Assembly (NCBI RefSeq): GCF_000165675.1
Contig: NZ_AEIZ01000002.1
Coordinates: 40 to 64,039, forward strand
Direction: 5' to 3'
Length of the DNA: 64,000 nucleotides
Source of the DNA: Leuconostoc fallax KCTC 3537
GTDB lineage: Bacteria > Bacillota > Bacilli > Lactobacillales > Lactobacillaceae
Shown here: one piece after another, positions 6,359-13,840 of the stretch
Layout of the letters: the number at the start of each line of letters is the position of its first letter
Numbering within the stretch: position 1 is the stretch's first letter
Position numbers and translations under genes: made by a program
Notes under the pieces: model-generated
Seen by the model: only the letters and a program-made list of their open reading frames with translations
What the model was told of the DNA's origin: nothing
Databases searched by the model: none

Positions 6359-6660
6359 AAAAACCGCCCAAAACTACCTCATGGATAGTTAAGGACGGTT
6401 TCCCGCGGTGCCACCTTAGTTTGAAAACAGCGTTCACAAAAGAACACAGTTTTCACTCCTCCACACACTTCTAACAAAGTGTTGACAACTGACGTATGTC
6501 GCACGTTCAGAAGTACTTGATTAGATACTAATCTTTCATCTGACCCTCAATGGTCCATTTGCCAATTTGCATTTCGGTTCAGCTCTCAGCCCCCTGAACT
6601 CTCTTTGCGCGCATCATTGGTTTGATCTCCATATCAACGGTTTGTTTCGGACGATTTACT
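6359..6660 (-). promoter_or_regulatory. T-box leader, tryptophan specifier, with antiterminator/terminator
   Basis: The leader of the trp operon holds the T-box signature AAGGTGGCACCGCGGG (minus strand, 6402-6417), which pairs with the free 3' end of uncharged tRNA. It is followed by a G+C-rich terminator hairpin ending in a U run at about 6359-6402. In the 3' side of stem I a TGG triplet (6555-6557) sits in the context AAATGGACC expected for a specifier loop, so the sensed tRNA is tRNA-Trp. Uncharged tRNA-Trp should stabilise the antiterminator and switch on trpB-D-C-F-A-E-G. Confidence 0.95.
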
Positions 6661-12229: not shown

Positions 12230-13569
12230 CTATTTTTTAGCATTAAGCGTCTGAACACGATACACCGCATATCCTAACATGAGACCTACCATTCCGGGAA
12301 CAACCCAGCCCATCCCCTGCGCCGCTAACGGCACAACCTGATGATAAGTTGTCACAATTTGAGATACCCACCCTACTACTGATACTGGTGAATTAGATAA
12401 AGCATCTAAACATGCAGGACCTATCACAAAAACCATCACCATTTGATAAACAATCGCTGATCGATTGAAAAATTTTGCTAGTAATGATAAAGCAATCAAA
12501 GAAAGTGCAAATGGATACATCAACATCAAGACCGGCACTGCCCAAGCAACAATGTTGGTTAATCCAGCATTTGCCGTGATAAACGATCCAGCAGCGATAA
12601 CCCGCAACCAGTTCAAATAACTCACTTTCGGAAATGCTTTGTGCATATCTTGTGCAAATGATGCAAATAATCCCATAGCTGTTGTAAAAACAGCTAAAGT
12701 TACCACAACACCTGTGAATAAAGTACCAAAATTACCAGCGTAATGCCCAACAATCTGTGCAAAAGTATCGCCACCATTAGCCGAAACCTTAAAAGCACCT
12801 AAACTTGATGTCCCCAGCAATACGAGCGCTGTATAAAATGCAGCTTCAACGACAATGCTCAGCATACCAGCTTTAGCTACCATTTTAGGTACCTCATCAT
12901 CATGATAACCTAGACCTTTAACAGCGTAAACGACGGTCACCGCTAATGCCAATAAAGCGATACCATCCATTGTATTATAGCCATCTAAAAATCCTTGAAA
13001 TACCGCATTTTGTTGATAAGCTGTATTGACCGTTTGTTGCAAGTTACCCATCGGTACAAGTAATGCAATACACAAAATGCCAACTAATAAAATTAAGAAT
13101 AGCGGATTAAGATATTTACCAATCCATGATACAAGATTAGATTGTTTCACACTCAGCACATATGCTAAGCCAAAAAACAGAGCAGAAAAATAAACATGCC
13201 ACCGGTCTGAAGTGAACCCGGTAAAAACGGTGCCACACCCATTGAGAATGCTGTAGCAGCTGTCCGTGGTGTCCCAAAAAATGGACCAATCGTTAAATGT
13301 AGCATGACTAAAAATAATGTACCAAACCACGGTGCTACTGGTTTGGCAATATCATACACACCACGACTCCTTGTCACGCTGACTGCCAACATTGCCAAAA
13401 ATGGCACCAATGTTCCAGTAACTAAAAATCCTAGGGTAGCTGGTAACCAATTCGCGCCGGCCAATTGACCGAGCTGTACTGGAAAAATTAAGTTTCCCGC
13501 ACCAAAAAACATACCAAATATTAAAGAAGCGACTAAAATCGTCTTTCGCCAATGATGTTGTTGTGTCAT
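12230..13569 (-). pseudogene. brnQ: Branched-chain amino acid carrier BrnQ, one-base frameshift
   Basis: BrnQ (LIVCS family) imports Leu, Ile and Val with Na+ or H+. The N-terminal 134 codons (MTQQHHWRKT, then ASLIFGMFFGAGNLIFP, a diagnostic LIVCS motif in TM1) stop early; the rest resumes in another frame at FSALFFGLAYVLS and continues through about ten membrane segments. Adding one base to the five-T run (minus strand) at 13186-13190 gives a normal 446-residue carrier. SD GAAGGAGAAG precedes ATG 13569. The 5' leader contains an Ile/Val-rich leader peptide and attenuator, which strongly supports the substrate assignment. The break is probably a sequencing error. Confidence 0.92.
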
Positions 13570-13590: not shown

Positions 13591-13633
13591 AACAAAAAAC
13601 TCGATTAACTGTATGACTACAGCTAATCGAGTT
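13591..13633 (-). terminator. Attenuator terminator in the brnQ leader
   Basis: On the minus strand a ten-base-pair stem AACTCGATTA/TAATCGAGTT (13624-13633 with 13598-13607), extended by CTGTA/TACAG inside, is followed by six U. It sits 22 bases before the brnQ start, so it must be bypassed for brnQ expression. Confidence 0.88.
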
Positions 13634-13719
13634 ACAAGTATCACTTATAAATTAATCAGTCAGCTGCGCATTATTGATGTGAATCATAATGCGCAACACT
13701 AAATATCAGCCCATTATGA

Positions 13720-13779
13720 TTAGATAATAATAATGGCGCTGATAATCACTAATTCAGTTACGACGTTACTTGTGTACAT
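13720..13779 (-). CDS. brnQ leader peptide, Ile/Val-rich
   Basis: A 19-codon frame, MYTSNVVTELVIISAIIII, starts at ATG 13777-13779 with SD AAAAAGG six bases upstream and ends with TAA at 13720-13722. Ten of nineteen residues are Val, Leu or Ile, and the last four codons are all Ile (ATT ATT ATT ATC). It lies about 26 bases after the predicted transcription start and about 150 bases ahead of brnQ. Its role would be to sense charged tRNA-Ile (and Val/Leu) through ribosome position; the peptide itself need not be stable. The placement relative to hairpins and terminator makes chance unlikely, but expression is inferred. Confidence 0.8.
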   Translation of the reverse strand: MYTSNVVTELVIISAIIII

Positions 13780-13811
13780 TTGTTACCTTTTTCTTATTAA
13801 ATAATAATTCA

Positions 13812-13840
13812 ATTAAAACATTATCATAATATTTTGTCAA
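13812..13840 (-). promoter_or_regulatory. Promoter of the brnQ leader
   Basis: Minus strand: TTGACA (13835-13840), 17-base spacer, then TTTAAT (13812-13817) with an extended -10 TG. It directs transcription into the leader peptide region. Confidence 0.8.

Follow-up and report, generated by a model that had tools for sequence, protein, structure and literature searches.

A conserved Ile/Val-rich leader ahead of brnQ in Leuconostoc fallax is probably a ribosome-mediated attenuator

Introduction

How is an importer of branched-chain amino acids (BCAA) controlled when its gene is preceded by a short, isoleucine-rich reading frame and a set of mutually competing hairpins? This question is raised by the brnQ gene of Leuconostoc fallax KCTC 3537, which lies in the 64,000-nucleotide stretch of DNA analyzed here (positions 40 to 64,039 of contig NZ_AEIZ01000002.1, referred to as the window). 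An original prediction made from the letters of the window proposed that a ribosome stalled on the leader frame relieves termination ahead of brnQ. We analyzed parts, relatives and predicted folding of this leader and compared the outcome with other modes of BCAA gene control.

Results

The leader region and its parts

The whole attenuator region occupies the minus strand from 13840 to 13570, ahead of brnQ, and contains the following features.

13812-13840, minus: promoter with extended -10, i.e., TTGACA (13840-13835), a 17-nt spacer, TG and TTTAAT (13817-13812); direct reading
13786-13789, minus: Shine-Dalgarno (SD) motif AAGG of the leader frame; direct reading
13720-13779, minus: leader peptide frame MYTSNVVTELVIISAIIII followed by a stop codon, 19 codons, the final four Ile; predicted sensing codons 10-17
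13704-13744, minus: hairpin 1:2, 5' arm within the Ile-rich codons, 3' arm forming region 2; folding and covariation
13682-13721, minus: alternative helix 2:3, AATCATAATG (13721-13712) with CATTATGATT (13691-13682), 10 exact pairs; pair-by-pair check
13663-13697, minus: hairpin 3:4, 12 + 3 bp; folding and covariation
13619-13667, minus: proposed antiterminator 4:5, GCAGCTGA (13667-13660) with TTAGCTGT (13626-13619); predicted with 2:3 held, and swap test
13594-13633, minus: intrinsic terminator 5:6, 16-bp stem (13633-13598) and U tail; terminator scan
12230-13569, minus: brnQ, branched-chain amino acid carrier (PF05525; Pfam/NCBIfam), with a one-base frameshift at the T run 13190-13186

The promoter, the SD motif, the 19-codon frame with its four final Ile codons, hairpin 1:2, the exact 10-bp helix 2:3 and the terminator were thus all present as originally described; the 3:4 hairpin was there as well, although longer than the 9-bp arms first assigned to it. 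The region 4 segment of 4:5 is GCAGCUGA and its partner is the 5' arm of the terminator, whose stem is separated from the brnQ ATG (13569) by 28 nt. None of 200 dinucleotide shuffles was as stable as the leader fold (z = -8.4; opposite strand, z = -4.9). From sequence, we judge the arrangement to be beyond chance because it is conserved with covariation in relatives.

Occurrence and gene neighborhoods

A covariance model built from 11 brnQ upstream regions had matches in 51 of the 399 Lactobacillaceae genomes sampled, spread over 13 of 40 genera, and genus groups with the element include Leuconostoc, Fructobacillus and Convivina. The window genome itself falls outside the genus group containing Leuconostoc (g16) and is the sole sampled genome of its genus. 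At order level (396 genomes) two matches at E <= 0.001 lay outside Lactobacillaceae, and among 399 Bacilli genomes at class level the window's own genome was the only match at this threshold; the genome samples of the family, order and class searches overlap. The parts recur in relatives, i.e., the promoter arrangement TTGACA-17-TG.TTTAAT is common to most copies, an SD-like motif stands ahead of most leaders, and a terminator was found 3' of every scanned element, with one exception whose downstream sequence is N-masked.

Most copies precede brnQ, either directly or with one gene between, which, where present, encodes a 263-amino acid protein resembling 2-keto-4-pentenoate hydratase. A first pass restricted to brnQ-adjacent leaders had suggested that Leuconostoc was devoid of the element; this was overturned by the covariance search, in which Leuconostoc copies were often found one gene upstream of brnQ. 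Some copies precede an MHS-type metabolite/H+ symporter, followed in one genome by a gene that, judged by eye, resembles threonine dehydratase. Two blind hits in another Lactobacillales family (L173, L175) stand ahead of genes for a BCAA aminotransferase and for a substrate-binding protein of the LIV type; at 144 nt, both variants of the element carry a longer insert. The covariance model hints at a function for the MHS-type symporter and the hydratase-like gene.

At five loci of the Leuconostoc group (L153, L155, L156, L142 and L171), with leaders such as NQLILSVIVIIT, the element is flanked by an ABC ATPase gene on one side and by an oppositely oriented gene on the other, the latter phosphoketolase-like in three of them; the leader frame of L142 is broken. 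A same-strand downstream gene was looked for at these five loci and none was found, and it is possible that such copies are free-standing leader RNAs. Two weaker matches were observed elsewhere: L161 (G246) precedes a PTS transporter/6-phospho-beta-glucosidase-like pair, and L169 (4144-4234, G045), with Val and Ser codons in its leader, precedes a glutamate-cysteine-ligase-like gene (all names given by eye).

Rfam 15 contains no family that matches the element in the window or in relatives, at gathering or relaxed thresholds, and a search of non-subscription literature found no report of it. It appears that the element is of a known kind, a ribosome-mediated attenuator, and an undescribed RNA family.

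Helices kept by matching changes

In the paired columns of 1:2 and 3:4, counted over 53 sequences, 16 of 23 pairs changed on both sides; 152 cells had changed on both sides compared with 49 in shuffles, and 89.7% of cells were paired compared with 78.6%. Column-wise covariation of 2:3 in the model-fitted alignment was weak because its pairing register shifts between clades. We therefore used a swap test, in which partners were exchanged between sequences (29 representatives with less than 80% identity, 20000 permutations). Helices 1:2, 2:3, 3:4 and 5:6 paired better within than between sequences, with 0/20000 permutations reaching the observed mean, and for 2:3 the within-sequence partner was preferred in all 29 representatives. 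The controls 4:6, 3:5 and 2:5 showed no within-sequence preference among the same representatives. The control 1:4 did give a signal, which is expected as an indirect (transitive) consequence of 1:2, 2:3 and 3:4.

Pairing 4:5 was also preferred within sequences, as only 4/20000 permutations reached its value; this preference, of 1.4 kcal/mol and seen in 19/28 representatives, was much smaller than that of the other helices. The order of the helices together with the conserved 4:5 pairing points to a six-segment layout, similar to that of the his operon, with 4:5 as the putative antiterminator step. The original prediction had named the competition of 1:2, 2:3 and 3:4, and this logic stands, but it lacked the link from 2:3 to the terminator, for which the conserved 4:5 pairing is the candidate.

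Might the element instead have four segments and lack a true 4:5 helix, with 2:3 acting otherwise, e.g., by a pause or a steric clash? The small size of the 4:5 preference would fit, and so would the palindromic CAGCUG core, conserved among the copies, since it allows region 4 to pair with many copies by default. Against this stand the within-sequence preference that 4:5 shows and 4:6, 3:5 and 2:5 do not, and matching changes such as GUAGCU/AGCUAC in L. mesenteroides and GCAGCUG/CAGCUGC in Convivina. We regard a four-segment arrangement as unlikely and describe the six-segment layout in the following.

A stalled ribosome and the terminator

We folded the nascent window RNA codon by codon with a ribosome footprint assumed to reach from A-16 to A+12. 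Helix 2:3 had a probability of 0.70-0.97 as long as one of codons 10-17 (Leu-Val-Ile-Ile-Ser-Ala-Ile-Ile) was in the A site; this fell to 0.18 at codon 18 and to 0 at codon 19 and the stop codon. The 29 representatives gave the same kind of profile, all of them losing 2:3 at the stop codon. Across these sequences, Ile, Val or Leu made up 168 of 295 activating codons compared with 59 of 221 others, for which a Fisher p-value overstates independence because the sequences are related. This refines the original prediction: codons 10-17 would sense, whereas the last two Ile codons beside the stop would not. The computations show that the parts are present and conserved, that five pairings are preferred, and that 2:3 depends on where the ribosome stands.

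Holding 2:3 in the folding led region 4 to pair with the terminator's 5' arm. Equilibrium energies favor the terminator form (-41 to -47 kcal/mol) over the form with 2:3 and 4:5 (-31 kcal/mol); antitermination must therefore be kinetic, as in other attenuators. We infer the kinetic folding order and the response to amino acid supply as follows. With charged tRNA-Ile (and Leu/Val) plentiful, the ribosome would reach the leader stop and cover region 2; 3:4 and then the terminator would form, and transcription would end before brnQ. With charged tRNA scarce, the ribosome would stall once its A site had reached about codons 10-17, masking region 1 such that 2:3 could pair before region 4 is made. 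Region 4, left free, would then pair with the terminator's 5' arm as 4:5, the terminator would come too late, and brnQ would be transcribed. If the leader were not translated, 1:2 and 3:4 would form and transcription would terminate.

The features of leader-peptide attenuators as a class were found together at this locus, i.e., a short translatable frame with start, SD and stop that is kept in relatives, mutually exclusive hairpins with compensatory changes, an intrinsic terminator that separates the leader from the gene it regulates, and regulatory codons at predicted positions where stalling exposes region 2. The 4:5 (D:E) antiterminator pairing of the his type was found as well, by the swap test (4/20000) and as a prediction with 2:3 held, and is weaker than the other helices. 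The comparison with relatives by which the original prediction was to be checked, i.e., conserved Ile codons and covariation, speaks for leader-peptide attenuation before brnQ. We conclude, with a probability of about 0.88, that the element is a ribosome-mediated attenuator that turns brnQ on upon shortage of Ile (Leu/Val).

Predicted amino acid specificity of the leaders

At their ends, the aligned leaders read IIISAIIII, QIIISIIII, QVIISVVIILS, AIIISIIIP, AVVVSVVIR and similar sequences, with a core kept as IIISIII or VVVSVV. The codon AUA is rare among leader Ile codons (3/310) compared with seven window genes (26/188). Strong conservation of the IIISIII core in Leuconostoc, Fructobacillus and Convivina would also be expected of an arrest peptide, a TnaC/Erm-like nascent chain that stalls the ribosome on ligand binding and does not sense tRNA charging. 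Yet Ile, Val and Leu replace one another freely in the core and Ala or Lys can take the place of its Ser, with hydrophobic BCAA codons being retained; the conserved AGC codon doubles as 5' strand of 1:2; and targets, where identified, are mostly genes of BCAA uptake or metabolism. Arrest by the peptide itself is very improbable on these grounds, and we retain codon-dependent attenuation.

Seven genomes carry two brnQ-linked elements (G000, G172, G193, G211, G258, G273 and G306), and each of the seven combines an Ile-coded leader with a Val-coded one. The window leader is the Ile-coded one of its genome; the second copy, outside the window (L005, G000:C29:107022-107116), is Val-coded, MSIQFTSTEQILPSVVVSVY, reading SVVVSVY. 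Well-supported branches of the BrnQ tree force a minimum of four changes of the Ile/Val label. A wider reading, to which we would give even odds, is that of an uncatalogued Lactobacillales RNA family whose sensed amino acid was repeatedly reprogrammed after brnQ duplication: one copy would keep IIISIII (Ile) and the other gain VVVSVV (Val), so that the amino acid to which an importer responds would differ between paralogues, with the extra Leuconostoc copies that have no same-strand gene as possible free-standing leader RNAs. If the paralogue reading is true, leader codons should predict the inducing amino acid and perhaps the transported one.

State of the brnQ gene and other regulators

Against a 457-amino acid intact relative, the window brnQ is split by a one-base frameshift at the T run near 13190-13186 (minus strand) into frames of 134 and 366 amino acids, a site that both this relative and the intact paralogue of the same genome read through. 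Either the assembly is wrong here or the mutation is recent, and the window copy, being frameshifted in the assembly, may hence be inactive. With the second, intact brnQ 94 kb away, the element in KCTC 3537 could be a remnant ahead of a pseudogene. We consider this possible but doubtful: sequencing errors and slippage typically fall in T runs, the rest of the protein (311 residues) continues in frame with no stop at 72% identity, and all regulatory parts are intact. Plasmid records contained only distant brnQ matches.

We also considered control of brnQ by a T-box, a metabolite riboswitch or CodY, with the short frame being incidental. The T-box model (RF00230) gave 20 matches in the window genome, and some LIVCS (BrnQ-family) genes in Lactobacilli are under T-boxes (PMC2494555). 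None of the 20 matches lies at brnQ, however, no Rfam 15 leader family matches there at gathering threshold, and a PF06018 search did not detect CodY in the window genome (91% complete), while leader frame and codons are conserved. Such control is scarcely credible next to attenuation by a translating ribosome. The same T-box search bore out both original statements, namely that brnQ has no T-box and that the trp operon of the window has one; the latter lies upstream of the trp genes at 6388-6646, minus (C29:6427-6685, minus), and scores 82.5 bits, below the Rfam gathering score.

IlvC likewise had no match in the window genome at this 91% completeness. Absence of detectable IlvC and CodY would be expected if the organism depended on BCAA import, and the gene content fits such a dependence.

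Discussion

The brnQ element would add a conserved, ribosome-read BCAA attenuator to lactic acid bacteria, known mainly for T-boxes and CodY, and would place it on an importer rather than on a biosynthetic operon. As IlvC was undetected in the window genome, BCAA import would be needed for growth.

The enterobacterial his leader consists of six segments (A-F), the last hairpin being the terminator, and carries a run of codons for one amino acid. Like the brnQ element, it alternates between 1:2/3:4/5:6 and 2:3/4:5. Rfam searches with the window and relatives detected no similarity between the two, and unlike the his leader, the brnQ element is predicted to sense Ile/Val (Leu) and to control an importer in Gram-positives.

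T-box control of LIVCS (brnQ-type) transporters has been described in Lactobacilli (PMC2494555). These T-boxes act on the same transporter family with amino-acid-specific control through tRNA charging. In contrast to the brnQ element, they read uncharged tRNA directly and need no ribosome, and the window brnQ has none.

The original prediction put it too strongly in naming T-box or CodY as the general mode of control for BCAA genes of Gram-positives, as leader-peptide attenuators of such genes have been shown in Listeria (PMC5864092) and are supported in Staphylococcus aureus (PMC5794164). Rli60 of Listeria monocytogenes is an established, BCAA-responsive ribosome-mediated attenuator of ilv-leu with a short leader peptide (PMC5864092). 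It is, like the brnQ element, a Firmicute ribosome-mediated attenuator with such a peptide; unlike it, Rli60 controls biosynthesis in a CodY-containing cell, and at E <= 0.001 our model matched only the window's own genome among the 399 Bacilli genomes sampled. For S. aureus, a leucine-rich ilv-leu attenuator is supported, and BCAA attenuators have been predicted in Lactococcus lactis and Streptococcus (PMC5794164). The S. aureus attenuator shares with the brnQ element a BCAA-rich leader peptide and a terminator ahead of BCAA genes, but it serves a biosynthetic operon, is dominated by Leu and has a different hairpin arrangement.
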